From Methanobacteriota archaeon (GTDB lineage Archaea > Thermoplasmatota > Poseidoniia > Poseidoniales > Thalassarchaeaceae): 27,334 bases of DNA. The position numbers were made by a program, and so were the translations under genes. Location of the stretch: assembly GCA_002720055.1 (NCBI GenBank), contig PBGH01000019.1, positions 1 through 27,334 on the forward strand. Reading direction: 5' to 3'. Numbering within the stretch: the stretch's first letter is position 1; each line of letters begins with the position of its first letter. Below the pieces are notes generated by a model, which saw nothing but the letters and a program-made list of their open reading frames with translations, had not been told where the DNA came from and ran no database searches. This document shows, in pieces, positions 5,979 through 27,219 of the stretch.

Positions 5979-7784
5979 ATGGTAGTTTGGACCCCACCCG
6001 ATAGAGATTACGAATTTCTATTCAACGAGGTTTTCGATGCAATCCACTCAATCGAAGGTCTAGGCTTCGACGACTTCGATAAAGAATCTCTTTCAATGAT
6101 GATTGAAGGATGGGGGAATCATACTAGGGAAGTTTGGCTTCCAATAAACAAAATTGGAGATAGTAAGGGACTAACTTTTGAAGATGGAAGGATAACCATG
6201 CCTCCTGAATTCAAGGAAGCATATCGAAGAGGAGTCGAGGAAGGGTGGTTTGGTACGGCCTCTAAGCCAGAGCATGGTGGAATGGGTGCTCCCTTATTTT
6301 TCCAATCTGTCACTTGGTCCGAATACGGTACATCTACTTGTATGGCGCTAAGCGTTTTTCCAGCTCTATCTACAGGAGTTTACGAGGTTCTGAGCACGCA
6401 TGGGAGTGAAGATCTCGTAGATTACTATGCAAGCAATCTTGCTTCTGGTAAATGGAGCGGAACTATGTGCCTGACCGAACCTCATGCTGGAACTGATTTG
6501 GGAATGATCACCTCCAGAGCAGAGCCAGAAAAGGACGGATCTTACAGGATATCTGGAACTAAAATTTTCATCACAGCAGGGGAGCATGATATGACGGATA
6601 ACATCCTGCATTTGGTATTGGCAAAGGCTCCCGGAGGTCCAGATGGAACCAAAGGAATATCACTATTCTTAGTTCCTAAGTATCTTCCATCAGAGTGGAA
6701 AGAGGGAGGCTTGGCTGGTCTAAGCGAAGACCTAGATTCCACAGAGAATGGAGTAACCTGTTCCGGTTCAGAGGAAAAGATGGGCATACATGCAAGTCCG
6801 ACATGCGTGATGAATTTCGACCAAAGTGTGGGTTGGCTGGTAGGACCTCTCCATGAGGGAATGCCGCTGATGTTCGAGATGATGAATAGAGAGAGATTAG
6901 CCACCGCGATGATGGGGCTTGGTTTGGGCGAAATATCCTATCAAAACGCTCTTTCTTGGGTAAAGGACAGGAGACAGGGTAGAGATCTGAGCGGAGTTCG
7001 TGACCCTAACGAACCCGCAGACAGTATACTTGTTCATCCGGATGTACGGAGAATGCTCCTTGAAGCTAAAGTAAACAATGAGGGATGTCGTGCTCTAGCA
7101 GCATGGTCAGGAATTCTACTTGATCAGATGCATAGCGAAAATCCTGAGATCTCAGAACCAGCAAAGGCACTAGTCGCGCTTTTTACACCTATTGCAAAGG
7201 CTCATTTTACGGATTTGGGTTGTGAGACAGCCGATACGTGTATGCAGGTGATGGGAGGAGCGGGCTACTGTTCCGAGTATGGTGTCGAACAATTCTATCG
7301 TGATGTCAGAATTTCCAAAATCTGGGAAGGAACAAATGGAATTCAAGCACTGGATTTAGCAGGTAGGAAAATCACTCAAGACTTTGGAAAGAACCTTCGT
7401 TACCTCATGTGGCCTCTAAGCGAATTTATCGAGAACAATAGGGAAGACCCTGACATGGAAGAATTCAACAGACCACTATATCAGGGAGTTAAGGGATTAC
7501 AGCAACTCACTTTGTTAATGGTTTCTCAAGGTGCTGCAAACCCACTATTCCTAGCTTCCGGGGCCACGGATTACTGTAGATATTTCGGGAATGTACTTCT
7601 TGCATATATGTGGGCAATAATGGCCAAAGTGTCCCTCGAGAGAAAGGGAGAAACATTCTATGATGCTAAACTGGCTAGTGCCCGCTTTTTCTTTTCGAAA
7701 ATATTTCCAGAGACAACCAGTCTGGCAGCTAAAATCCAATCTGGACAAAACCCTCTCATGGAATTCACAGAGGCGATGCTTTGA
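5979..7784 (+). CDS. fadE: Acyl-CoA dehydrogenase (FadE-like, about 600 residues)
   Basis: An FAD enzyme that introduces the trans-2 double bond in acyl-CoA, the first step of beta-oxidation. The 601-residue protein is longer than the usual 380-residue dehydrogenases and matches the large subfamily (Bacillus subtilis FadE, Mycobacterium FadE5-like) with an extra C-terminal helical region. Visible motifs are TEPHAGTDLG with ISGTKIFITAGEHD, KMGIHASPTC, NRERLATAMMGLG, VMGGAGYCSEYGVEQFYRD and KIWEGTNGIQALDL, in which Glu450 is the expected catalytic base. The start at 5979 is set by a GAGGAG SD overlapping the TGA of fadN. The next gene begins at or a few bases after its stop, suggesting co-transcription. 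The electron acceptor is not in the window; an ETF system elsewhere is expected. Substrate chain length cannot be read from the sequence. Confidence 0.93.
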   Translation: MVVWTPPDRDYEFLFNEVFDAIHSIEGLGFDDFDKESLSMMIEGWGNHTREVWLPINKIGDSKGLTFEDGRITMPPEFKEAYRRGVEEGWFGTASKPEHGGMGAPLFFQSVTWSEYGTSTCMALSVFPALSTGVYEVLSTHGSEDLVDYYASNLASGKWSGTMCLTEPHAGTDLGMITSRAEPEKDGSYRISGTKIFITAGEHDMTDNILHLVLAKAPGGPDGTKGISLFLVPKYLPSEWKEGGLAGLSEDLDSTENGVTCSGSEEKMGIHASPTCVMNFDQSVGWLVGPLHEGMPLMFEMMNRERLATAMMGLGLGEISYQNALSWVKDRRQGRDLSGVRDPNEPADSILVHPDVRRMLLEAKVNNEGCRALAAWSGILLDQMHSENPEISEPAKALVALFTPIAKAHFTDLGCETADTCMQVMGGAGYCSEYGVEQFYRDVRISKIWEGTNGIQALDLAGRKITQDFGKNLRYLMWPLSEFIENNREDPDMEEFNRPLYQGVKGLQQLTLLMVSQGAANPLFLASGATDYCRYFGNVLLAYMWAIMAKVSLERKGETFYDAKLASARFFFSKIFPETTSLAAKIQSGQNPLMEFTEAML

Positions 7785-9575: not shown

Positions 9576-10553
9576 CTATCTCTTTGACCACATTTTCTGC
9601 CAAACGTCGATGTTCCTTTGGATATCATCTTCTGATACCTGCCTATTCTCTACACCATGCCGGCCAATGGGCTGTATTCTACATCCACAAGCATTTGCAT
9701 GACCCCCTCCGTCGGGATCTAACAGAGTTGCCATTAGAGTTAAATCGAAAATTCCACCACTAGTGTGGAGAAAAGAATTGGTATAGAAGGAGGCTGATAC
9801 AGGGTATTTCTCCTTATCATCGAACGAAGCACCTATATCTCCATGAATTACAATACAAGCATCACATCTCTCACCGGCCATTGCAGTAATCTGATATCCA
9901 TTAGATCGTAATCCTAAATTTTCCAGCCTAACTATTGCTAGACGATCTTCAACCCTAAGATTCTCCTCTATCTTCTTCCTTAGAGCCTCTATCCTAATGC
10001 CCGTTTTCTTCAACAAGGAATTGAAGTTTGACTGTCCTAGAATATCTTCAACAGAGATACCTCTCTGCAGACTCTTCAGAATTGAATTTGCAACATACTC
10101 CCCCTCATCAATTAGTCTACTGAGCCATAATACGGGAGAATCCGAAAGGTACTCTTCTCTAGTTATTCTTCCACTATCTAGCTTATCTACCCACTCAATC
10201 AGCTCCTTCATATCCGAGAGATCAATATGCTCAGAAAATAACTCAAAAGCAATCCTTGCTGCAGAAGGGTAGTCCTTCCAAATTACTACCGCCCCTTCAT
10301 CCGAAAAACTCGATTTATTTGACTGATGATGGTCAATACTCAATCCACAATTGGGATGGCCGGGCAAATCACATATTGCCGTATATCTATCAATTAGCCC
10401 GTCATATACGCCTGCTCTAAGCTGCCCAGGGTGGCCAAAAAAGACCTCCGCCTCGGACCACCATCTTCTTAGTATAGCCGCGGTAACTACTCCATCCAAA
10501 TCTGAGTCAGTAACAATCCTATGAATTTCCAAATCAATTGGTCGGACTGTCAT
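9576..10553 (-). CDS. DHH/DHHA1-family phosphoesterase
   Basis: A 325-residue member of the DHH superfamily, metal-dependent phosphoesterases that include RecJ, nanoRNases and cyclic dinucleotide phosphodiesterases. Motif I is TDSDLDGVVTAA (residues 15-26, with Asp16, Asp18 and Asp20), motif II is around Asp62 in CDLPGH, and motif III is IDHHQSN (Asp74-His75-His76). The C-terminal DHHA1 domain shows GGGHANACGCR near residue 282, close to the canonical GGGHxxAAG. The domain pair and length are like stand-alone archaeal DHH proteins rather than full RecJ, which is longer. Likely substrates are short oligonucleotides or dinucleotides; this is a family-level inference. It is transcribed alone, convergent with the methyltransferase and divergent from the Nudix gene (89 bp between starts). 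Confidence 0.85.
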   Translation of the reverse strand: MTVRPIDLEIHRIVTDSDLDGVVTAAILRRWWSEAEVFFGHPGQLRAGVYDGLIDRYTAICDLPGHPNCGLSIDHHQSNKSSFSDEGAVVIWKDYPSAARIAFELFSEHIDLSDMKELIEWVDKLDSGRITREEYLSDSPVLWLSRLIDEGEYVANSILKSLQRGISVEDILGQSNFNSLLKKTGIRIEALRKKIEENLRVEDRLAIVRLENLGLRSNGYQITAMAGERCDACIVIHGDIGASFDDKEKYPVSASFYTNSFLHTSGGIFDLTLMATLLDPDGGGHANACGCRIQPIGRHGVENRQVSEDDIQRNIDVWQKMWSKR

Positions 10554-13376: not shown

Positions 13377-16300
13377 ATGAACATAAATAACGAGAAAAGT
13401 ACGAAAAAGACAGTATTAGTTGCAATCTCATTAGTTGCATTGATGGTTCTTAGCACGCAACTAAGCATCTTTAACGACGGAAAAAAAGATACAGAAGACC
13501 AAAAGCAGATCGAAATCACCAAGCGAACTGCATTTCAGCAAATTGAACAGATTCCTGGAGCTAATCTAGTAGAAAATCAACTTCAATCAGTGCAATCCAT
13601 TCCTTTCTTCCATTCTCCATTTCTAGATCCGTTCTACAATGATCCCGCAGCAATTTATGGTAAGGTCTCGGATATCACAGCTCTGACTCTGGATCCTAGC
13701 TATGGTTTCTTTCTAGAAGAGACAAATACCGATGATCACGATAACGACGGAATAGATGATTTGAATGATCTTGATGATGACAATGATGGGATAAACGACC
13801 TAATTGAAAGGTTTGATGGCTGCTATGGCACTGATCCATACGATCATGATAACGATGGAATACAGGATGAGTTTGACTGGGACGATGACAACGATGGCAT
13901 TCTAGAAGGACCAATTGACTACTCCCAAGGACAAGATCCCTGGAACGTCTCTTCGGATAGACATGTTCTGCCTAACGTCACCCATCCTTGGACTGGACAA
14001 CCAGTAGGGGTAGATTATCTTGTAGATCAGAATCCTATGGATCACGATAACGACGGTATTCCAGATGAGGATATCGATGGATCAGGCAGAGGGTCTTATG
14101 ATGAGGATGATGACAATGATGGACGTATTGACCAGTTCGTTTGGCCATGCGATTTCGATGGAGATGGAATTCAGGATTACTTCGATTTAGATGACGATGG
14201 AGATGGAATTTTGGATATCAATGATATCCATCCCTGGGACCCAGAACAGACCTCTAATATCTCTCAATCTCCGGGTATTCTGTGGGACGATTGGGTTCGT
14301 TGGGATGCAATAGATTACGCACAGTACGTGGATGGAGTCGATTACGTAGCAATGCATGCTCTCCAGCATCCTCGTGATCAGGCCTTCACAGACATACTAG
14401 ACGGAGATCTTGATGGGGACGGAATTCCAAATTTCCTTGACCCAGATAATGATAACGATGGCTCTCCAGACTCATCTGATACAGATGACGATAACGACGG
14501 TCTAGCTGACATGTACGATGTCGATGATGACAACGATGGCATTCCCGATGAGTGTCGCCAACTTGACACCAACGGAGACGGACAGGGCGACTACCCAACT
14601 CAATCATTCAACAATGCAGTACCTTCGATTGAGACGCCTGGAGAGGATTGTGAAATAGACTATGACGGAGATCTCGATGATGATCGCTTCCGAGCGATCG
14701 ATAAGGACTATGATTTGGTCTGGGACTGGTTAGATCCAGATTTGGGGGGAACTACAACTCCCGACAACCCGACCCCACTCGGTGATGGAAACAACCCATG
14801 GGACTTAGACAACGATGGACTAAGGAATGAGGTTGATCCATACCCTCTCAACGATTCTGCGGAGGTAGTTACCTGGGATTGCGCTAGTGTGGCAAACCCA
14901 AACCCTCAGCAGCCAAGTGATAACTGTGTTCTATGGAGAACATCATACACGGGGTTCAATGATTGGGATGGAGATGGAGTGAACAATTGGGTTGATGTCG
15001 ATGATGACAATGACGGCATCCTAGACTGGCTAGACATAGACGAAGACTGTGATTTGGATAATGATGCCGATTTACACGAGCTGAACGGGTCTATGTTCAG
15101 AGACGATGGACCCAATGATATCGATACAGACATCGATGGTGATGGGCTTCAAAATGATGAAGATTGGGACGATGATAACGACGGTATCAACGACTTCTTT
15201 GATCCTGATGATGGAAACTGCGGAGTCGTCGATATCGACAACACTGACAATTTCTGGGGCAACAGTTGGCCCCAAGGAGACGGTGATGCTATCGATGGTT
15301 CTACTGACAGCCAACTGTATGCAAATCTAGATTCTACTTATTGGAATATCACATGGGGTTTCAATCCATTCAATATTGATAATAGCTTCATGCTTGATTA
15401 CAATGGGTATGATGAAAGCTCCTTCCCACCAACTCCTGGTAAAATACCTGAGATGTATTGGTTCCTTCTGATGAAGTGGAGTCCATACAATGGCGGCAAT
15501 TTCTTCGACATAGACATCGATGGAGACTCGCTAATTAACGGTATTGACGTAGACCAAGATGCAGACGGTTTGCCAGACTGGTGGGACCAGGACGAGGGTA
15601 ATGATGGCGTATTGGATGTAGATGATGTCAAGATGGGCGGCTCTCTAGATGGCAACTCTTGCGGCCCTACCTTCGCTGCACTAGTGGTGCAGACACCGGT
15701 TCCTGGAGAAATCCAATGTGGGCATTACTACGCATACTTGTACAAGTTCCCCCTTCTGACCCCTACTCAATCGAGCGGCCAGGTATTTACTGTTCCATAC
15801 AGCTCTAGACCAGATTCTGTTTGGGATGACGGTGCATACAATGGTGACAACCACCCAACTGGGGACGGAAAATGCGACAATAACTGCTTCTACTTCACAT
15901 TTGACCCTCAAAGCAATCCAACCCCTTCGGTAGCCTATAGCTACAACCAAATTAAGAATAATAGAGATCTATGGATTGCTTATCTAGGAGTTACTGAATT
16001 CCAATTCTTCCAATGGACTTCCGATGTCAACAACAACTTCTTCCCTGACGAAATAGCAGACGAATTGGATGATTTTGAAGACCCAGATATAGATTGTGGT
16101 CAACCTATGCCTACCGTTTCTTGGGTCCCCAATTGTATGTACAACAATACCAATGATCTCGATGACGATTGGGATATCGTATACGATCACTTCGACGTCG
16201 ATGACGACAACGACGGGACATGGGATTTCTTGGAATTAGATTTTAACGACGATCTCGACGATGACTCTTCTATTGAGGAACCATACTACTTCACTGGGAG

Positions 16301-19300
16301 CAACTGTGAGGATAACGACGATGACGGCTTAGACACCGATCCAGATGAAGACGGAATCTATCAAGCCGTCTGGGATCGAGGGGTTCTAGGCCAGGGATTA
16401 CTATTTCCAACGTATTATGACGTAGACAATGACAATGACGGAGTTCCAGATGGCGAAGACCCGGACGACGATAACAACGGGATCCCCGATGAAGTCCAAG
16501 AGGCTCCTCCTTTCGGGTCGGATGCAACACCATCTTGTTTTTCAGGAGAGGAGCAGAGCCCATGGGATCATGATAACGACGGAATCCTAAACTGGGCTGA
16601 CAATGACTGGGACGGAGACGGAATACCAAACTCAATTGAACTCCTGAATCTTATTGATCAGCGAGGAACAGCCGACCCTATAGATGATATATGCTGCTTG
16701 AATTTCCCGATAGCTCCATGGGACCATGACAATGATGGCATCAGAGATGATTTTGACGATGACGATGATTACGATGGAATGAAGGATGAGGACGAAGTGA
16801 TGCTTTGGCCATCTAGATTCGGATTGGAATCTACAAATCCTTGGGATCATGATGACTTTGGTGGAGGAGTAGGTATAGCCAATCCAGCAAACAACACTAC
16901 TGGCCCTGACTACTTCGACGTCGATGACGACGGCGACGGACGGGTGGATCTTGATTGGAACAATCCCTCTGATGGAAATTGGGCTAATCCTTCAAATAAG
17001 ACCGAAGACGCGTCTGGCTGGAGCTCCGACTGGGATGCAGATAATGACGGAATTCTGGATGACGATGATAAGATTCCGACAAGGATTACTCTGTATTCCA
17101 AACCTGTTCTGTGGCTTGACGAAAATCGACCTGCAATATTCAATGGATCTGTTTTCTGGCTAGATGATACCGGATTCGTTCCTGCACCCGATTTACCGGT
17201 ACAAGTCCACATCAGGTATATCGAAAATGGGACATCTGTAATCGAGACAATAGATGTTCTTACGGATGAAAATGGGGAGTATATTGTCGGACAGTTCCTC
17301 TTCCCTGAGGACATACAAGTAGGTCCGAACACCACTTACGAAGTCTACTCAGAGGTCACCGAGATGTTCGTTCATGATTACAGCTCTACTTTGACAGATA
17401 CTGACGGAGATGGAATTGGAGATACAGGCTTCCCAGTGGAGGTTAGGGCTAATACAACAATAGGGTTTGTTGCCGGACAGAGGTTCAGAGCCGATGAGCA
17501 ACCTCTGAAGCTTGACTTCAAAGTTCACTACACCGCAGATTACAATCGGGGTATCTTCGATAATAGACTACCTTTCGCTCCGATCTCATTCACCATCAGT
17601 GATCCGGGAACTCAGTTCGGCAATATCACCGATCCAACAGTTTACGACGGTTATGGAAACGGGTACAGAGCAGACTCAGGCGGATGGGTCTCACTTTCGT
17701 ACAATCAGTCTGCAGATAATTGGGAGCAGGTACAATGGAACTCTCTTTTGGATAATGGTCTTGGCATCCCTACTGGTGGTTATGAGAGAATTAGTTGGAC
17801 AGAATGCCAATCCAATATTCCTGGTGAACACGCTGTAATAGAAAGCCCATATCAGTACAAGAACACAACCCTACCAGTAGGTGACTACAGCTTCGTTGGA
17901 TTCTCCAGGCCAGATCTAGGAGGATGTTTTGATGGATCATCTGAGTGGCCATGGGAGCATTTGGAGGGTTCGAAGACAGATACATTCTACATCCGTGCAA
18001 TGCACAGAATGTATGTCGAGGCCGAGATGTATGCCTCATCATTCAGACCAGTTTATTTCTGGGACGCAACCCAGTTCACCGGCTCGTCATTCGGCGCGTG
18101 GAGGGCACTATTTCACGCACCATCTCTGGTTAACGCCGGTATAACCTTCGCTGAGGCAAGCCTGGGCAAATCATACCCTATTCTGTGGGACGGGACACAA
18201 GTCGGACTTGATGAAATAGCCGATGGTGCTCTATCTCCATTCCTGTCCTCCAATGGTACTCACTGGACAATTTCCATGCAGAATGGAGCAGATTTCGACT
18301 CTCCTCCTTGTGGACCAGTCGATCCGTTGACTTCGTCTACTAGTGTGAGATGTGAGATAGTTCCTGAGATGTTCACAGGTGAGACGTTCAGAGTAATTGG
18401 ACACGTATGGAACCGGACCCTTGATCCTTGGACCCAGGATGCGATAGCCCTTCAGGTCGATATTGACAACAACGGAGTTTTCGCAGGCAGCCTCGAGACC
18501 GCGTTTTCAAGACGACCTAGCATGGTGGAGGGAATGGCTACTTTCGACTACAATTGGACCTGGTACTCTCAATACCCTGCAGGAACATTCGGAGTTAAGG
18601 CCGACTTCACCCTTTCCGATTACTACTTCACTGGCGATCAGGCACAGGTTCTCGCTGCAACTGGAGCATATGGCAATGTTTCAGTGATAGGTACTACTGA
18701 CTTCCAGCTGAATACCATTCCACGACTATATCGCGGTCAGAATACTACTGTGGAGGCTCGACTGATCGATAATGCATACCAACCGGTTAGAGAGGTTCCG
18801 ATTAACTGGACGTGGTCTGAAGACCTATCCAGCGGCGTAGCAATCACCGACAATAACGGAGTTTTCAGAGTAAACCTCACTGATATAGATACATTGGGGA
18901 ACTTCTCACTAGGATTTACATATTTGGGAGATTCTCTAAGACAAGGAAACTCAGCTGAAGTAAGCCTGTGGGTTGTTTCTAGAACATTCATCAATGTTCA
19001 GAATACAAGCTCAAATATTGTGTCAAACGGAGACCTCTGGTCATTTTCGGCTGCCGTCACTGACGATGCCAGAACACCATTTGAGAAAGACGCAGGACTA
19101 GGACTGAACGGATGTGCTGGAGAACTGAATGATGATGGATATGGCGTAGGGGGGAACATTACAGTAATTTTTGAGGGAATAGACTTCGAAGATAGAACCC
19201 ACAGACAAATTGTCAACGTTACATGTCCCAATGCAGGGTCAATCTCATACAGGACTTTCTTAGATCCTCAGCTTCTCAAAGACGATCCCTTCTCTTACTT

Positions 19301-21305
19301 GCCCGATGGATTCGGCCCTGTAAACGTCATAATCAGATTTGAGGAGAACCTCCCACATGAGGGATGCGAGCCTATCGACGCTGCAATGCTGACTACCTCG
19401 GGAGCATGGGATCCGTGTGTAATAATCCAGAACAGCGACCACTTCCGAAGAGTACTACAATTCCAAATCGACGGCTTTAGCCTAATTGGAAACACAGAAT
19501 TGGATGTCGAACAGCAGATTGTCTACACCTCCGAAATAGATCCCGACACCGGTCAAATCTTAGAGAAACCTATGATTGTGTCTGGACAGCTTAGAGATGA
19601 GTTGGGCGGCAATCTCACGAACCGGCAGATTCGGGTCACATACGAGATGGGATCAATGATTTTCGATCCTTTAGAGAATAGGATGAAGTTTAGAGCCGGA
19701 GATGCTGGAATCGAGGCATGTATTCCTGGTGCTACCAACGAAAATGGACTCTTCGACATCAACTGCCCACTAACCGGAGTAGATGCCGGGATGGCAAAGG
19801 TGAAGGTTGAGTACAATGCATGGGACCCTTTGAATAACGATCGATATAGATACAAAAACAAGACGCAGACGATGTTCTTCCCTGTATTCTCAAATTCGAC
19901 AATAGAGGTTTCGGAAGTCGGACCATTTAGATCAGATTATCTGACATACACGTTCCCGAATGGATCTACTTTTGATGTATTATACCTCAAAGAGGCTTTC
20001 CATATCAATGCCAAACTCTCTCAGTCAAATGGCAAGCCAGTAGGAGGAAAATGCGTCAACATCTATCTGGATCCAGAAATCAATACTCGACCTATTGCTA
20101 CGGCATTCACGACTGATGGTACTGGGGAATTCATTTGGTACTCCGCAGATCCAGACGATAACCCAAGTAGAAGGGGGGTTGAGCCAAGTGGAAACAACCT
20201 CGAGGGATTCAGAACTGTCAGAATCGCATATGAACCTGAGAAGTACGTTCCAGGGGGGTGTGATTACGAGGCTTTAGAGCCTAATCCAGTTCTCAACAGT
20301 TCGATAGCAGACGTCCAGGTTCTTGTAAGAAGTAAAGTCGATATCCTACTCAAGGAACACTGGTCAAGTCCTACTGGATATCTCGAGGGTGAGATGATTG
20401 CTGGAGAGGTGTCTATTCTGCGAGATAGACTCGATTTGACAGTCGAGGGACAGAGAGTTGAGTTCCATCGTCAGTTCTGGAACGGATCGGGATGGCAGAC
20501 CGAAAGGGTAGAGATATTGATTACCAACGAAAGAGGCTCTGCAAATTTCTCCTTCCCATACACAGGAGAAGTGATACCGGGGCACCCTGAGTGGACTGCA
20601 GAGGGAGGAAAGTGGAGAGTATTGGTACACTTCGAGTCTGCAGATGCAAACAAGCCATATTTCGTGGAGCAATGGCTAAACAGTACCCCCGAAATCCAAC
20701 TCGGAGCCGCTTCTACAGCCGGTAGTAGCGGAATTTGGACTACGCAAGTTATACTCCTTGTAGGAATCTCACTTTCTGGAGTTTTGTTGGCTGGTGCAGT
20801 GATGTACAACAACTACCGAGAAAGGAGGAAGGTCGAGGTGCTCAGAGGAATCCTCACTGATGCGCTGATGTCCTTGAAAGCTTCAAACAACTACATCGAG
20901 GCGATATTCTCCTGTTACAAGGATCTAATCAAGTACTTCAGAATGAGAGGAGCTATGAAGAAGGTTTTCGAGACTACTAGAGAGTTCGAAGAAGTAATCA
21001 ACAAAATGTTAGGAGGAATAGTGCCACCCGAGGAACTTGATATGTTCTTCTCGATCTTCGAGGAGGCAAGATACTCAGACCATGATATCGGTTCCGAAGA
21101 TAGGGATAGGGCAATACAGATTTTCCAGTCTATGATCGGTAGGATGAACAGATCATTGGGTGATAGCTTACTATCTAGGAGTTCAGCGAATGAGTCTTAT
21201 CTATACGGGCCTTCAGTGAAGGCAGGACAATTCGTCGATGCTGATGGAAACATTAGGTTTGCAGGCATTGATGACTCTGTTGACGATGAAGGGTTCAAGA
21301 TTTGA
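13377..21305 (+). CDS. Giant membrane-anchored surface protein with calcium-binding (TSP3-like) repeats
   Basis: A 2642-residue protein. Residues 12-31 form a hydrophobic signal/anchor segment after a Lys-rich start. Residues about 119-1232 hold some 35 Asp-rich repeats of the DxDxDGxxD kind (such as DDDNDGI and DHDNDGI), typical of thrombospondin type 3/calcium-binding repeats, interrupted by Trp/Pro/Cys-containing inserts. Residues about 1233-2450 are beta-rich with many Asn-x-Thr/Ser sequons and segments like DENGEY, DNNGVF and NENGLF, suggesting serial Ig-like or carboxypeptidase-regulatory-like domains. A single membrane helix spans about 2458-2477, followed by basic RERRK and a 165-residue cytoplasmic tail that resembles DUF4129. 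The extracellular part thus faces out. Likely roles are a calcium-stiffened stalk, adhesin or polymer-binding protein; no catalytic motif was seen. An SD (GGTGA) supports the start. Acidic composition is unlike the neighbours but suits seawater. Confidence 0.9.
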   Translation: MNINNEKSTKKTVLVAISLVALMVLSTQLSIFNDGKKDTEDQKQIEITKRTAFQQIEQIPGANLVENQLQSVQSIPFFHSPFLDPFYNDPAAIYGKVSDITALTLDPSYGFFLEETNTDDHDNDGIDDLNDLDDDNDGINDLIERFDGCYGTDPYDHDNDGIQDEFDWDDDNDGILEGPIDYSQGQDPWNVSSDRHVLPNVTHPWTGQPVGVDYLVDQNPMDHDNDGIPDEDIDGSGRGSYDEDDDNDGRIDQFVWPCDFDGDGIQDYFDLDDDGDGILDINDIHPWDPEQTSNISQSPGILWDDWVRWDAIDYAQYVDGVDYVAMHALQHPRDQAFTDILDGDLDGDGIPNFLDPDNDNDGSPDSSDTDDDNDGLADMYDVDDDNDGIPDECRQLDTNGDGQGDYPTQSFNNAVPSIETPGEDCEIDYDGDLDDDRFRAIDKDYDLVWDWLDPDLGGTTTPDNPTPLGDGNNPWDLDNDGLRNEVDPYPLNDSAEVVTWDCASVANPNPQQPSDNCVLWRTSYTGFNDWDGDGVNNWVDVDDDNDGILDWLDIDEDCDLDNDADLHELNGSMFRDDGPNDIDTDIDGDGLQNDEDWDDDNDGINDFFDPDDGNCGVVDIDNTDNFWGNSWPQGDGDAIDGSTDSQLYANLDSTYWNITWGFNPFNIDNSFMLDYNGYDESSFPPTPGKIPEMYWFLLMKWSPYNGGNFFDIDIDGDSLINGIDVDQDADGLPDWWDQDEGNDGVLDVDDVKMGGSLDGNSCGPTFAALVVQTPVPGEIQCGHYYAYLYKFPLLTPTQSSGQVFTVPYSSRPDSVWDDGAYNGDNHPTGDGKCDNNCFYFTFDPQSNPTPSVAYSYNQIKNNRDLWIAYLGVTEFQFFQWTSDVNNNFFPDEIADELDDFEDPDIDCGQPMPTVSWVPNCMYNNTNDLDDDWDIVYDHFDVDDDNDGTWDFLELDFNDDLDDDSSIEEPYYFTGSNCEDNDDDGLDTDPDEDGIYQAVWDRGVLGQGLLFPTYYDVDNDNDGVPDGEDPDDDNNGIPDEVQEAPPFGSDATPSCFSGEEQSPWDHDNDGILNWADNDWDGDGIPNSIELLNLIDQRGTADPIDDICCLNFPIAPWDHDNDGIRDDFDDDDDYDGMKDEDEVMLWPSRFGLESTNPWDHDDFGGGVGIANPANNTTGPDYFDVDDDGDGRVDLDWNNPSDGNWANPSNKTEDASGWSSDWDADNDGILDDDDKIPTRITLYSKPVLWLDENRPAIFNGSVFWLDDTGFVPAPDLPVQVHIRYIENGTSVIETIDVLTDENGEYIVGQFLFPEDIQVGPNTTYEVYSEVTEMFVHDYSSTLTDTDGDGIGDTGFPVEVRANTTIGFVAGQRFRADEQPLKLDFKVHYTADYNRGIFDNRLPFAPISFTISDPGTQFGNITDPTVYDGYGNGYRADSGGWVSLSYNQSADNWEQVQWNSLLDNGLGIPTGGYERISWTECQSNIPGEHAVIESPYQYKNTTLPVGDYSFVGFSRPDLGGCFDGSSEWPWEHLEGSKTDTFYIRAMHRMYVEAEMYASSFRPVYFWDATQFTGSSFGAWRALFHAPSLVNAGITFAEASLGKSYPILWDGTQVGLDEIADGALSPFLSSNGTHWTISMQNGADFDSPPCGPVDPLTSSTSVRCEIVPEMFTGETFRVIGHVWNRTLDPWTQDAIALQVDIDNNGVFAGSLETAFSRRPSMVEGMATFDYNWTWYSQYPAGTFGVKADFTLSDYYFTGDQAQVLAATGAYGNVSVIGTTDFQLNTIPRLYRGQNTTVEARLIDNAYQPVREVPINWTWSEDLSSGVAITDNNGVFRVNLTDIDTLGNFSLGFTYLGDSLRQGNSAEVSLWVVSRTFINVQNTSSNIVSNGDLWSFSAAVTDDARTPFEKDAGLGLNGCAGELNDDGYGVGGNITVIFEGIDFEDRTHRQIVNVTCPNAGSISYRTFLDPQLLKDDPFSYLPDGFGPVNVIIRFEENLPHEGCEPIDAAMLTTSGAWDPCVIIQNSDHFRRVLQFQIDGFSLIGNTELDVEQQIVYTSEIDPDTGQILEKPMIVSGQLRDELGGNLTNRQIRVTYEMGSMIFDPLENRMKFRAGDAGIEACIPGATNENGLFDINCPLTGVDAGMAKVKVEYNAWDPLNNDRYRYKNKTQTMFFPVFSNSTIEVSEVGPFRSDYLTYTFPNGSTFDVLYLKEAFHINAKLSQSNGKPVGGKCVNIYLDPEINTRPIATAFTTDGTGEFIWYSADPDDNPSRRGVEPSGNNLEGFRTVRIAYEPEKYVPGGCDYEALEPNPVLNSSIADVQVLVRSKVDILLKEHWSSPTGYLEGEMIAGEVSILRDRLDLTVEGQRVEFHRQFWNGSGWQTERVEILITNERGSANFSFPYTGEVIPGHPEWTAEGGKWRVLVHFESADANKPYFVEQWLNSTPEIQLGAASTAGSSGIWTTQVILLVGISLSGVLLAGAVMYNNYRERRKVEVLRGILTDALMSLKASNNYIEAIFSCYKDLIKYFRMRGAMKKVFETTREFEEVINKMLGGIVPPEELDMFFSIFEEARYSDHDIGSEDRDRAIQIFQSMIGRMNRSLGDSLLSRSSANESYLYGPSVKAGQFVDADGNIRFAGIDDSVDDEGFKI
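13731..17072 (+). repeat. Array of Asp-rich calcium-binding repeat units (coding)
   Basis: About 35 degenerate units encoding DxDxDGxxD loops occur within the giant gene, recurring as GATGATGACAATGATGG- or GATCATGATAACGACGG-like DNA strings. Units often occur in pairs with 12-13 residue spacing (for example around residues 122-150), as in thrombospondin type 3 repeats, and are separated by longer non-repeat inserts. One more isolated unit (TDTDGDGIGD) is encoded at 17394-17423, beyond the array. The repeats vary in codon use, so the array is old and not a recent tandem expansion. Confidence 0.88.
20855..21155 (+). other. DUF4129-like cytoplasmic domain of the giant protein
   Basis: Residues about 2494-2593 after the transmembrane helix form a helical domain. 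The pattern CYKDLIKYFRMRG, then ETTREFEEVI, then FFSIFEEARYSDHDIGSEDRDRAIQIF matches the layout of DUF4129, whose usual form is 'aYr.ll..L...G......T..Ef...v......l..lt..fe.arYg......ed...a...l'. DUF4129 is known as the C-terminal tail of membrane transglutaminase-like proteins; its function is not established. The match was made by eye. Confidence 0.55.
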
Positions 21306-23080: not shown

Positions 23081-25192
23081 ATGGATGTCGAAGCCCGGTC
23101 GAATGATGCCTCACTAGCCAGAATAAAGTGGCTTGCTGAGCAGCTAGAAATCCATTCAGATTTATATTACAACAAAGCAGATCCTATAATTTCAGATTCT
23201 GAGTTTGATGCCTTAAGGGACGAGTTGCAAAACCTCTCTCCCGACCATCCACAACTCAGCATAGTCGGATCTGATCCTCCACCTGGATCTGAAAAGGTGG
23301 AACACCTATTCAGAATGATGAGCTTAGATAAGGCTAACTCGGATGAAGAGGTAGCCCACTTCGTTTCGGAGACTACTGCTAAGGGAAGAAGATTCGTCTG
23401 TCAGCCGAAACTAGATGGCTCCGCACTCTCGCTAGAGTACAGAAGGGGAAGATTGACCAAGGCAGCAACTAGAGGCAATGGAAAAAGAGGAGAAGACGTC
23501 ACAGCAAACGTTCGAAGAATGATAAACATCCCAGTAAAGCTCGATTGGGAGGGAGACTGTCATGTCAGAGGAGAGGTGGTAATGCCTCTCGAGATATTCA
23601 AAGAAAAGTACTCACATGTAGCTCCAAATCCTAGAAATCTCGCAGCTGGAGCTCTTCGACAGAAACATGTCGATGCAGGTAAGGGCAGCCCTGAGGACTT
23701 GGCATTCATAGCATACGGAGTAGAATTCCCATCCGAGAAAAACCGACATCCTGACAGCCCAGAGCCACCTCACTTCAAACTAGACTCCGAAGTCATCTCA
23801 TGGATAGAAAAAATGGGCATAGATATAGCCGGAAACACCGTGGTTTCCGGTGAAGACGATACCTCAACAACCAAGGCAATCCTCTCCATAACTAAGGAAT
23901 GGTTCGAATCAAGGGATTCAGCAGATTGGGAGATGGACGGGGTCGTGATTAAACTCGACCGCCTTGACAAAAGAGAACTACTTGGCCAAACTGCTCATCA
24001 CCCGAGATGGGCGTTGGCTTGGAAGTTTCCTCCCGAGGAAGCTATTACTGTTCTGATGGAGGTGTACTGGCAGACTGGAAGGACGGGAAATGTAACGCCT
24101 GTATCCAGAGTGGCTCCAGTAGTAGTTTCTGGGGTAACGGTAGAGAACACAACTCTCCATAACAAGGGGGAGGTGGAAAGGCTTGGAATAATGCTCGGCG
24201 ATAAAGTGAGGTTAGTACGCAGGGGAGACGTCATCCCAAAGATCACAGAGGTTCTAGGTCCAGCCAGTCAGATAGATTTGGATGACAGGTTACATGCAGA
24301 TGGAACTGAATTCACAGAAGAAATTCCTAGCAGATCCACCATTGAGGCCCCCGTAAATTGTCCACGATGTAGTGGTGAACTGGAGGAAGAAGGAGCATTC
24401 ATTCGATGCATAAATATCGACTGTCCAGCTCGCTTGGAGAGAACTATACTATACTGGTGTAGAAAGTTAGGAATGGATGGGATTGGAGAGAAGCTTGCAG
24501 AGCAACTCTGCTCTTCGGGAATGGTTTCTAGTCTTGCGGACCTCTATCGTCTTGAGGATAGGAAGACAGAGCTAATCAGTCTGGACAGGATGGCAGAAAA
24601 ATCTGTAAAAAATGTTCTAAACGAGCTTAGGAATACAAGGAAAATGACCCTAATCGAATTTATTTCGGCACTTGGATTGCCTAGGATAGGTCCAGAGATT
24701 GCTACATTGGTCTGCTCAGAGGTGAAGACATTCGAAGAGCTGATCAAGATGATCGATGAAAGGGATGAAGCAATACAGAGATTGGTGTCTATAGACAGAA
24801 TTGGTGAGACTGTAGCACAACTCCTCCTAGATGGAATATCAGATAGGCGCGACTCCATACTGGATCTATACACTCAAATAGAGATAATCGCAGGGAATCA
24901 ACTTAATTCAGAAGGACCACTATCTGGAAGTACATTCTGTATTACGGGCACTCTTACCCGACCTAGGAAGGAAATAGCATTGTCAATAAAGTCAGAGGGG
25001 GGAAAGGTAGTTTCTTCGGTATCTGGAAATCTAAACTACTTGGTAGCGGGAACCTCAGCCGGATCTAAGATGGACAAGGCCAGAAGGCTGGGAGTAAGGG
25101 TGATCTCAGAAACTGAACTTGACGATCTACTTGGCGGGACAATTTTAGAAGATCTCCCCGATGAGAGACAGACAACTCTAGGAGAGTTCTAA
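23081..25192 (+). CDS. ligA: NAD+-dependent DNA ligase (LigA)
   Basis: Seals DNA nicks using NAD+. The 703-residue protein is complete. Domain Ia has SDLYYNKADPIISDSEFD (26-43), adenylation uses Lys110 in KLDGSALSLEY, followed by TRGNGKRGEDVT, MDGVVIKL (285-292) and HHPRWALAWKFPPEE. After the OB fold (TGRTGNVTPVSRVAPV) comes a four-cysteine zinc finger (Cys427, 430, 443, 448), an HhH region (LGLPRIGPEIA, IDRIGETVA) and a BRCT domain at about 614-686. The tail ends RQTTLGEF, a PIP-box-like sequence. NAD+ ligase is the bacterial type; most archaea rely on ATP-dependent ligase, though haloarchaea also have LigA. Bacterial origin by transfer is inferred. It starts 52 bp after the tRNA and its stop overlaps the convergent PAC2 gene by 4 bp. 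Confidence 0.96.
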   Translation: MDVEARSNDASLARIKWLAEQLEIHSDLYYNKADPIISDSEFDALRDELQNLSPDHPQLSIVGSDPPPGSEKVEHLFRMMSLDKANSDEEVAHFVSETTAKGRRFVCQPKLDGSALSLEYRRGRLTKAATRGNGKRGEDVTANVRRMINIPVKLDWEGDCHVRGEVVMPLEIFKEKYSHVAPNPRNLAAGALRQKHVDAGKGSPEDLAFIAYGVEFPSEKNRHPDSPEPPHFKLDSEVISWIEKMGIDIAGNTVVSGEDDTSTTKAILSITKEWFESRDSADWEMDGVVIKLDRLDKRELLGQTAHHPRWALAWKFPPEEAITVLMEVYWQTGRTGNVTPVSRVAPVVVSGVTVENTTLHNKGEVERLGIMLGDKVRLVRRGDVIPKITEVLGPASQIDLDDRLHADGTEFTEEIPSRSTIEAPVNCPRCSGELEEEGAFIRCINIDCPARLERTILYWCRKLGMDGIGEKLAEQLCSSGMVSSLADLYRLEDRKTELISLDRMAEKSVKNVLNELRNTRKMTLIEFISALGLPRIGPEIATLVCSEVKTFEELIKMIDERDEAIQRLVSIDRIGETVAQLLLDGISDRRDSILDLYTQIEIIAGNQLNSEGPLSGSTFCITGTLTRPRKEIALSIKSEGGKVVSSVSGNLNYLVAGTSAGSKMDKARRLGVRVISETELDDLLGGTILEDLPDERQTTLGEF
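25169..25189 (+). other. C-terminal PIP-box-like motif of LigA
   Basis: The last seven codons encode Q-T-T-L-G-E-F (residues 697-703) directly before the stop. Archaeal PCNA-interacting peptides follow QxxLxxF(F), often as QxTLxxFF at an extreme terminus. The second aromatic is missing because the protein ends. It follows an acidic/charged linker after the BRCT domain. Confidence 0.5.
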
Positions 25193-26007
25193 CCATACAT
25201 TCCAGTAGGTGCACCGCTAGTATCTTGAGATGGATTTAGATGAACTGCCATCATATCCCTAATCTGTCCCTCAATTCTCTGGGCCTCTTCCATTAGAGGT
25301 TCTGGATCTAAATGAACAGCAGGAAGTAGACCATCCATACGCCCGATTATTCTAGCCGCAGCTCTAGCATCAGGAATTACTCCCTGTCCGATCTCACCAT
25401 CAGATTCCGCTAGAATGGCAAGAGCATCAATCCGGCGCCTTCTACATTCTCCCATCATTACTCCCGTCATCCCTCCCACCAGTCCTTGTTTTAGTAGAGG
25501 TACTCCGATGTCTTTCAGCAGATCGTGACTAGACTCTTTTGACCCAATTCCTAGCATAGATTCCATTCCCTCGTCTTCATCGAAGATACTGTGACTACTG
25601 TCAATTCCATGAGCGAATGAATCAACCAAGATAGTCGAACTAACTCCCGAAGAGACGATCCAGTCAATCAATCCAGTAGATAGAGGGAGAATTAGCTCCG
25701 ATGGAATCTGAATCTCTGACGCAATCAGAACAACCTTATCACACTGATCCATATTACATATTGGCTCACCCGCATAAAATCTGATTGGAGGCAAAGGCTT
25801 ACCTTCCTGAACTAAACATACTGGAGGGAGTTTTGGATGGCGAACTCCCCCTACAAGTTCTAACTCTAGCTTTTCCACCAAAAAATGAGCTACAATACTA
25901 CTCACGAAACCAACCGATGGGAAACAACTCACCAGTAAGGCTCCAGAAGAGTTGACTCCCTCGTCTACTTCGACCATCGGACCTTCCGTCATGATTCGAG
26001 AAATCAC
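25189..26007 (-). CDS. PAC2-family proteasome assembly chaperone-like protein
   Basis: A 272-residue protein of the PAC2 superfamily, which includes archaeal and eukaryotic proteasome assembly chaperones. Visible features are the N-terminal LLVSCFPSVGFVSSIVAHFLVEKLELELVGGV (family 'G.p.vGlvG..aa..li..l...'), VVLIASEIQIPSE, a Gly-rich VGGMTGVMMGECRRRRIDALAILAES segment, and PDARAAARIIGRMD. The C-terminus ends MYG, which fits the hydrophobic-Tyr-any (HbYX) motif that docks into the 20S core particle. An ATG at 25992 (MTEGPMVEVDEG) is an alternative start and would leave more room for divergent promoters. It converges on ligA with a 4-bp overlap. Confidence 0.8.
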   Translation of the reverse strand: MISRIMTEGPMVEVDEGVNSSGALLVSCFPSVGFVSSIVAHFLVEKLELELVGGVRHPKLPPVCLVQEGKPLPPIRFYAGEPICNMDQCDKVVLIASEIQIPSELILPLSTGLIDWIVSSGVSSTILVDSFAHGIDSSHSIFDEDEGMESMLGIGSKESSHDLLKDIGVPLLKQGLVGGMTGVMMGECRRRRIDALAILAESDGEIGQGVIPDARAAARIIGRMDGLLPAVHLDPEPLMEEAQRIEGQIRDMMAVHLNPSQDTSGAPTGMYG

Positions 26008-26055
26008 TCAATGGTGTTAACCGTTGCCTCCCTCTCGGTTCAGATTGACGTAGTC

Positions 26056-27219
26056 ATGGCCGCCGAGAAAGAAAGCCAATCGAATATCCATCAGGTTTCA
26101 CCTTCATCCTGGAATAGATTCGAGGAATGCCCCAGAAAGTATTGGTTATCGCGACAAAGTCTCCCGAGAAAAGCCAGTATGCCAGCTTCAATGGGCAATG
26201 CGATTCACAATTCGTTTGAGGAAATTTGCAAAACCGAGATTTCCAAAGAATTCGACTATGAGAAGGGATGGTTCGTAGAAATTGTCAGGAGAACTCTAGA
26301 CAAACATTGGGAGATCGAAAGAGATTTGTTCATGGAGGCACCAAGACATCCTAGATGGAAGTCAGAACTATACCAAAAGGCCCTCGAAGGGTTAGTTGGG
26401 AGTTTGAAAATCCTGTTCAAAAGGACAATTGGCGAAATTAGTGATCTTTCTGAACTAGAAGCTTCAGATTGGGCTGAAACTCAAAGTAACATCCTAGCCA
26501 ATGAGGCTACATTAACCTCAAATTGCGGTAAGCTAATGGGGCGATTGGATTTGCTAATCTCGATTAAAAAGTCTGGAAAACCAGATGAATGGATTGTTGC
26601 CGATCTGAAAACTGGAAAACCACCCGTGACCGAATTAGATCCTAAAGTCAGCAGACAACTCAGATTCTATCGAGATATCCTAAAGCAGAACGAAACTGAA
26701 CACCCTATCGTAGTAGCAGAAGGATGGTATTCAGCAAATCAGACTATTCATACAGCAGAAGGACCATCAGTTATTGAAGAAGCATTGGAGTCATGGGAGA
26801 GGATGATCCCCACTCAAGAACCACTCTTAGCAACCCCTAGCCAAGAATCATGCTCTTTCTGCGAGTGGAAGTCTTGGTGTCCGAGTTGGTGGGTGGCAAG
26901 GATGGACGGCGAAATTCCTTCAGGAGGGATGTTCATAGACGAGGTTGTTAATTTGGTTAGATTAGACTCCCAATCCGGGGCTGCACTTTTCCAAAGGGCT
27001 CCACCATCTGGAAAAAACGGAGAGTTAGCAAAATCAAACCATAGATTCGGAGCTATTCTAAAAGATGGTGCACTAGAACAAATGAAGAAAATCATACATT
27101 CTATCGTAGACGACCCCATATTCCTGGGCAGTGCTAGAGTGTCGGGGAAAGTATTGCATCTTGGGGATTGGTCAGAGATTCTACCATGGTCTCCTTTGCT
27201 AGGGCCTGTATCCAAATAA
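26056..27219 (+). CDS. PD-(D/E)XK nuclease with Fe-S cluster cysteines (Cas4/RecB-like)
   Basis: A 387-residue protein of the RecB/AddB/Cas4 nuclease family, likely acting on DNA ends. SPSSWNRFEECPRKYW supplies Cys25, and SCSFCEWKSWCPSW supplies Cys266, Cys269 and Cys275, together the four ligands of the family's 4Fe-4S cluster. Catalytic residues are His51 in MGNAIH, Asp165 in GRLDLL, and Asp183/Lys185 in ADLKTGK, with QLRFY (201-205) as the following Q-x3-Y motif. About 105 residues follow the last cysteine and form an extra domain of unknown type. An upstream in-frame ATG at 26011 would leave only 3 bp to the divergent PAC2 gene, so the ATG at 26056 is preferred. No CRISPR or cas genes are nearby, so repair or recombination is the likelier role. 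Confidence 0.85.
   Translation: MAAEKESQSNIHQVSPSSWNRFEECPRKYWLSRQSLPRKASMPASMGNAIHNSFEEICKTEISKEFDYEKGWFVEIVRRTLDKHWEIERDLFMEAPRHPRWKSELYQKALEGLVGSLKILFKRTIGEISDLSELEASDWAETQSNILANEATLTSNCGKLMGRLDLLISIKKSGKPDEWIVADLKTGKPPVTELDPKVSRQLRFYRDILKQNETEHPIVVAEGWYSANQTIHTAEGPSVIEEALESWERMIPTQEPLLATPSQESCSFCEWKSWCPSWWVARMDGEIPSGGMFIDEVVNLVRLDSQSGAALFQRAPPSGKNGELAKSNHRFGAILKDGALEQMKKIIHSIVDDPIFLGSARVSGKVLHLGDWSEILPWSPLLGPVSK

Follow-up and report, generated by a model that had tools for sequence, protein, structure and literature searches.

A putative PCNA-docking tail on the bacterial-type NAD-dependent DNA ligase of marine Poseidoniales

How could a DNA ligase of bacterial type be fitted into the replication machinery of an archaeon? 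The question is raised by a gene in a 27,334-nucleotide contig of a Thalassarchaeaceae archaeon (hereafter the window, meaning this whole stretch of DNA), whose product is a complete LigA ending in a short peptide that resembles those by which archaeal proteins bind the sliding clamp PCNA. The evidence presented below makes it very probable that an ancestor of these archaea acquired a bacterial-type LigA, that the ATP-dependent replicative ligase was lost, and that, behind its BRCT domain, LigA has a flexible linker leading to a PCNA-interacting peptide at the C-terminus. On the best reading of these sequences, LigA would join Okazaki fragments on PCNA.

The ligase and its terminal peptide

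The features of the gene that bear on this question are as follows:

23081..25192, + strand: ligA, NAD-dependent DNA ligase, 703 aa plus stop (Pfam and NCBIfam matches)
23408..23410, + strand: codon of K110 in the KxDG motif (invariant across 37 aligned LigA)
24908..25132, + strand: BRCT domain, residues 610-684 (PF00533, 46.5 bits against a cut-off of 21.3)
25133..25168, + strand: linker, residues 685-696 (GTILEDLPDER region; 12 residues, charged; pLDDT under 50 for residues 687-703)
25169..25189, + strand: C-terminal PIP-like peptide QTTLGEF, Q697-F703 (sequence, relatives, and similar ends of FEN1 and the RFC large subunit, RFC-L)

The full domain set and the KxDG motif identify the protein as an NAD-dependent DNA ligase, LigA, with the corresponding predicted activity. 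Pfam matches cover the N-terminal NAD-binding, adenylation, OB, HhH and BRCT domains, the C4 zinc finger falls slightly below its Pfam cut-off (21.7 against 25.8 bits), and the NCBIfam LigA model TIGR00575 scores 531 bits against a cut-off of 444. In an alignment of 37 LigA, 7 of them bacterial, K110, D112 and G113 of the KxDG motif are invariant, as are the zinc-finger cysteines 427, 430, 443 and 448; we take K110 to be the lysine that is adenylated. The closest relatives fetched are 93% and 91% identical to the window protein across 703 residues. A preliminary description of the locus had named a full LigA domain set including BRCT, a charged linker and a terminal RQTTLGEF, and both the domain searches and the translation agree: the codons at 25169-25189 (CAG ACA ACT CTA GGA GAG TTC) encode QTTLGEF, preceded by R at 25166-25168 and followed by the stop codon at 25190-25192. 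In an AlphaFold model based on 37 sequences (mean pLDDT 81.2), residues 687-703 have pLDDT values under 50 and are devoid of secondary structure, which is how a docking peptide on a flexible tether would be expected to look.

The PIP-box consensus is given as QxxI/L/MxxFF/Y (PMC2737543), and the very C-terminus is described as the location of archaeal PIPs (PMC6881253). The window peptide has Q697 at position 1 (Q in 101/129 relatives), L700 at position 4 (L, and never I, M or V, in 121/121 aligned tails) and the aromatic F703 at position 7, and it forms the terminal, disordered last seven residues of the protein. As the preliminary description had pointed out, the final aromatic is missing, since the chain stops at position 7; with position 8 empty, the peptide falls short of a canonical PIP and is therefore classed as PIP-like with a single aromatic. 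Among 77 curated PIP motifs, 34% lack the Q and 43% lack one of the two aromatics (PMC6881253). From its sequence, the best reading of QTTLGEF is that a bacterial-type ligase here bears a single-aromatic PIP, which would bind PCNA.

Conservation and origin of the tail

The preliminary description had proposed comparing LigA C-termini from related archaea and from bacteria, and this comparison was carried out on both sides. A search with the window protein found 22 archaeal LigA loci, each of which ends in the motif, and among 120 listed homologues 119 have it within their last 12 residues. Among 129 related archaeal LigA with a complete C-terminus, whose common ancestry means that these counts are not independent events, the tail is kept in 122 in a loose form ([STNI]Lx[DER][FYWH] in the last 16 residues) and in 101 in a strict form (Qxx[LIMV]xx[FYWH] in the last 12). 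The 129 tails comprise the 22 loci, L031-L059 (29 less the open-ended L046), 80 further loci less 7 duplicates, and 6 others; five of the 122 LigA-bearing genomes (G025, G047, G069, G148 and G150) were left out because a contig end cuts the gene. One LigA outside the 129 (L354, genome G063) has the strict end QPTLFDY. Two of the tails, L013 and L014, come from a single genome: in assembly SP3092, two separate contigs each encode a LigA, and both proteins have the same tail, perhaps reflecting two strains in one bin.

Tail-bearing relatives diverge to about 50% identity with the window LigA, and the 122 proteins with a tail have between 34 and 65 residues after the BRCT G[ST]K motif; a variable linker with a constant end indicates that linker and motif are decoupled. 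In 121 aligned tails, L occupies position 4 throughout, position 6 holds D/E in 119, position 3 S/T in 117 and position 1 Q in 101, with variable residues at positions -9 to 0 ahead of the motif; the alignment demanded [LIMV] at position 4 and [FYWH] at position 7, so that constancy at these two positions is partly by construction. Another 20 of the 129 have no Q but retain [TS]Lxx[FYW] within their last 12 residues, often as TLFDY, and one of these does contain the strict motif, only farther from its end. Across 40 distinct DNA tails, picked by QxxLG[ED][FY] and hence constant at those positions partly by construction, six codons are used for L and four for G, indicating conservation of the peptide despite change in the DNA.

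The ligA gene and a convergent PAC2-family gene (25189-26007, - strand) overlap through their stop codons by four bases, 25189-25192, an arrangement that may favour TTC as the last sense codon of ligA (31/40 tails). Conservation of the tail imposed by this neighbour was rejected, because the neighbour's stop codon alone touches the motif, at its last base.

The tail is absent in 7 of the 129 related LigA. Five of these (L092, L134, L138, L348 and L352) end in MLQP right behind the BRCT domain and form one clade (support 1.0) nested among tail-bearing LigA, so a single loss is the simplest account of them. PF01068, the ATP-dependent ligase family, was not found in the genomes that encode them (G113, G061, G044, G085 and G126), which are partial. 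A tail-less clade with no detected ATP ligase implies that the tail is not strictly required, and it is likely helpful to LigA, not indispensable. In the other two, QKSLMDF lies in another frame just past the stop (L071) and SVLAEF comes after a stop codon (L087); these interruptions could be either real or assembly errors.

Among 63 bacterial-type LigA, the strict motif was found in none and the loose motif in one, where the match lies inside the end of the BRCT domain. This set (68 loci less 2 open-ended and 3 duplicates) consists of samples of two phyla, 7 loci found with the window protein, and the LigA L030 from an archaeal genome; 35 of the 63 sequences were included in the LigA tree. 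Two of the 63, L278 (QLDIFSP) and L290 (QIKLF), end in QxxLF and by sequence look like beta-clamp-binding peptides. The remaining 61 have no clamp-like end, and for this reason we favour a gain of the peptide after transfer.

These two sequences nevertheless bear on a different history, in which the donor LigA already carried a bacterial beta-clamp peptide (QL[SD]LF or QxxL(x)F) that was later retuned to PCNA, so that the tail was inherited; the present function would be unchanged. QxxLF is also contained in 29 of the 129 archaeal tails, the LigA of Helicobacter pylori reaches its own beta clamp via a peptide near BRCT (PMC4976356), and a ligase of marine group II has been placed near the spirochaetes (PMC1684257), a group outside the sampled LigA. 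Against this, 61 of the 63 bacterial-type proteins lack such an end, and the commonest strict archaeal form, with G at position 5 (41/101) and the aromatic kept at position 7, fits a PIP and not QxxLF. We therefore regard inheritance from the donor as rather unlikely and gain after transfer as the preferred account.

One stretch among the viral contigs fit a search pattern, and none of these contigs encoded a relative. Plasmid records yielded 218 with a LigA match, all under 60% identity, and those listed (40 rows from ten genera, with 74 further genera unlisted) are bacterial.

DNA ligase content and a second type of tail

Ligase content was read from the genomes of relatives, all of which are partial. 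Of 145 genomes searched in the class, 122 gave a LigA match, 18 a match to PF01068, 2 (G034 and G047) both and 7 neither. A LigA match is absent from 16 of the 18 genomes with PF01068, so that in these partial genomes the two ligases are nearly exclusive within the class. The preliminary description had suggested looking for an ATP-dependent ligase beside LigA; in 21 genomes close to that of the window (partial, 0.8-1.6 Mb), PF01068 was found in none. The LigA of G034 (L030) is 33% identical to the window protein, has no tail, and may come from contamination or represent a separate gene. A 2014 paper lists marine group II without an ATP ligase and with an NAD ligase from bacteria (PMC4153887, Table 3, by the column as it stands in the flattened text).

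This pattern bears on the proposal that LigA, while docked on PCNA, has an accessory role in repair, with an unseen ATP-dependent ligase performing replication. The genomes are incomplete and a divergent ligase could escape PF01068; in Haloferax, ATP- and NAD-dependent ligases share the essential function (PMC7776575); and a sister lineage whose LigA end in [TP]LD[EK]F[IVF], described below, has a PF01068 match in 7 of 8 genomes. Nonetheless, the absence of PF01068 from all 21 close genomes, its presence in only 18 of 145 across the class, 16 of these without a LigA match, and the marine group II entry in PMC4153887, which in the table as given lists no ATP ligase, make an accessory role quite improbable.

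The ATP ligases of basal genomes of the class (L060, L061, L062 and L063) contain an internal PIP-like QQ[PS]LFxxPLT. The Pyrococcus ligase likewise has an internal PIP, and since QQ[PS]LF resembles it by position, the ATP ligase that was replaced probably docked on PCNA as well, as judged by this analogy. In these basal genomes the ATP-dependent enzyme also has a PIP-like peptide, but an internal and not a terminal one, and it differs from LigA in its unrelated domain order and its ATP cofactor.

A search of 292 genomes from across the phylum, the class of the window included, found LigA in 156. The other archaea of the phylum contributed 29 LigA tails (30 loci less one open-ended, chosen as best-scoring and not as a random sample), with 0 strict and 5 loose matches, and in the tree these LigA sit outside the clade of the window, separated by an edge with support of 1.0. 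Eight of the 29 (L239, L240, L243, L244, L247, L251, L253 and L259) end in [TP]LD[EK]F[IVF], without a Q, preceded by a charged linker of varying sequence; together with the tail-less L254 they make up a nine-member clade (support 0.992). By its sequence, this end is possibly a second, Q-less PCNA peptide. A PF01068 match was found in 7 of the 8 genomes encoding these LigA, and was absent from 16 of 19 searched genomes whose LigA lacks the [TP]LD[EK]F[IVF] end. The former count indicates that the second tail, should it be a PIP, does not go hand in hand with losing the ATP ligase, and the latter that a tail-less LigA is probably able to serve as sole ligase.

Tentatively, then, bacterial LigA in this phylum could have been fitted with PCNA-docking tails at least twice, the first of which rebuilt the docking of the replaced ATP ligase and made LigA the main lagging-strand ligase; we hold this broader scenario to be possible but doubtful. 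The first gain would be that of the window's order (QxTLGEF, QxSLFDF and relatives) and the second that of the [TP]LD[EK]F[IVF] clade, and the first tail would stand at the other end of an unrelated enzyme compared with the internal QQ[PS]LF of the ATP ligase. The five MLQP-ending LigA and the 16/19 and 7/8 counts argue against the stronger proposition that LigA could take over only with a tail.

The clamp, its other partners and known systems

The peptides by which other proteins of these archaea would bind PCNA were compared with the LigA tail. The preliminary description had stated that archaeal PCNA partners commonly carry such peptides at a terminus, and this holds in the class examined here. 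FEN1 has a strict end in 32 of 34 proteins of the class (from 54 loci less 2 open-ended, or 52, 34 of them in the class), including QTSLFSF, QATLGDF, QFTLGDF and, in four close relatives of the window, QPSLFDF; the two non-strict FEN1 end in RPTLFDF. The RFC large subunit has a strict end in 22 of 24 (26 loci less L185 and L188, in which there was no closed ORF with a Walker motif), including QSTLDSF, QPTLDRF and QFTLDSF, with QKSLFDF or QRSLFDF in two genomes that keep the ATP ligase and the non-strict ends QMKLF and QTTLF in the remaining two. The corresponding Pyrococcus RFC peptide is QATLFDF. In G020 and G021 all three proteins can be compared within one genome, with LigA ending in QSTLGEF, FEN1 in QPSLFDF and RFC-L in QSTLDSF. 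Most FEN1 and RFC-L ends of the class likewise lack an aromatic at position 8, stopping after the first aromatic or adding a non-aromatic residue, which answers the worry over the missing second aromatic in LigA.

PCNA was found in 26 of 29 genomes, and the solved sequences nearest to it are 3HI8 (E 1.2e-25) and Archaeoglobus fulgidus PCNA (1RWZ). A model of a homologue from 29 sequences reached a mean pLDDT of 77.7 (the other four models, 58-67) and superimposes on 1RXM, A. fulgidus PCNA with a bound FEN1 peptide, with a TM of 0.88. The PCNA of these archaea is an ordinary one. With the PCNA residues that line the peptide pocket placed as is usual for the clamp, the Q of the LigA tail would occupy the Q-pocket, and the L and F would fill the hydrophobic pocket beside the interdomain connector loop. 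FEN1, docked on the same ring by a similar peptide, would cut the flap and leave a nick, which the flexible linker would let LigA reach and then seal; we infer such a hand-off from FEN1 to LigA.

Short terminal motifs can serve several partners, and the conserved end might instead bind something other than PCNA, such as a repair protein or a protease adaptor. The same pattern, however, is present in FEN1 and RFC-L of the same genomes, archaeal homologues of which bind PCNA by this means according to the PDB titles of 1RXM and 1ISQ, and a different partner accordingly seems about as improbable as an accessory role for LigA; PCNA remains the favoured partner.

The preliminary description had also warned that a seven-residue match could be chance, and this caution stands for a single peptide, which is weak evidence alone. 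Inside neighbouring ORFs the strict motif occurs at about 0.00057 per residue, giving an expectation of about 0.0034 per terminal window, and it was found near the end in 1 of 226 neighbouring ORFs (mechanical ORFs of overlapping homologous loci). Chance or drift in a disordered tail is nevertheless contradicted, and has next to no probability, given that 122 of 129 relatives (101 of them in strict form) retain the end after linkers ranging from 34 to 65 residues, whereas shuffling the last 40 residues of each tail for 500 rounds gave a mean of 0.446 strict matches and a maximum of 4 of 129. The sole match in the 226 ORFs is a chance QNPLMEF five residues before the end of an acyl-CoA dehydrogenase encoded in the window at 5979-7784 (+ strand).

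Several known systems resemble parts of this arrangement. The ligase of the marine euryarchaeal fosmid HF70_B12 is likewise a LigA and was judged laterally acquired (Poidevin and MacNeill 2006, PMC1684257); by its description, it very likely belongs to the same family as the window LigA, and the words PCNA and PIP do not occur in that paper, so that no tail is described there. LigN of Haloferax volcanii is likewise a bacterial-type LigA in an archaeon and covers the essential ligase function (PMC7776575, PMC1684257), but there an ATP-dependent ligase is retained alongside. A. fulgidus FEN1 (1RXM) and the Pyrococcus furiosus RFC large subunit (1ISQ) likewise have a C-terminal QxxLxxF-type peptide, in those structures on the clamp; here, in contrast, the carrier is a bacterial-type enzyme and position 8 is empty. 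H. pylori LigA also attaches to a sliding clamp through a short peptide close to BRCT, but the clamp is the bacterial beta clamp and the peptide, QEFIRSLF at residues 554-561, is not described as a terminal tail in the relevant passages (PMC4976356). The LigA of Mycobacterium tuberculosis is reported not to bind its clamp directly (PMC3335792).

The ligase replacement itself is already known: papers of 2006 and 2014 had described a LigA in marine group II with no ATP ligase beside it (PMC1684257, PMC4153887). A search of the open-access literature returned no report of the LigA tail, and subscription papers could contain one. Within that literature, what is new is a clamp tail that is near-universal in the order and absent from the bacterial-type LigA examined, together with its match to FEN1 and RFC-L, its one loss and its possible second appearance. 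If binding holds, a bacterial core replication enzyme would have been wired into the archaeal clamp system via a seven-residue adaptor that can be read from sequence, and the result would be an NAD-dependent ligase that PCNA may stimulate. Whether clamp docking enables takeover by a foreign ligase, or merely improves it, becomes a testable question, and the same order supplies tailed, Q-less and tail-less LigA for comparison. Marine group II is described as among the most abundant microbes of the surface ocean (PMC10160649).

Three further genes in the window were noted. A 325-aa protein (9576-10553, - strand) contains DxDG and IDHH motifs by eye (DHH-like), with no Pfam or NCBIfam match at E 0.001. 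A 2642-aa protein (13377-21305, + strand) has many DxDxDG-type acidic repeats and a hydrophobic stretch near its C-terminus, and its only match is a weak one to Big_1, below the cut-off. Finally, a 402-aa PD-(D/E)XK nuclease with a sub-threshold match to Cas4 is encoded at 26011-27219 (+ strand).
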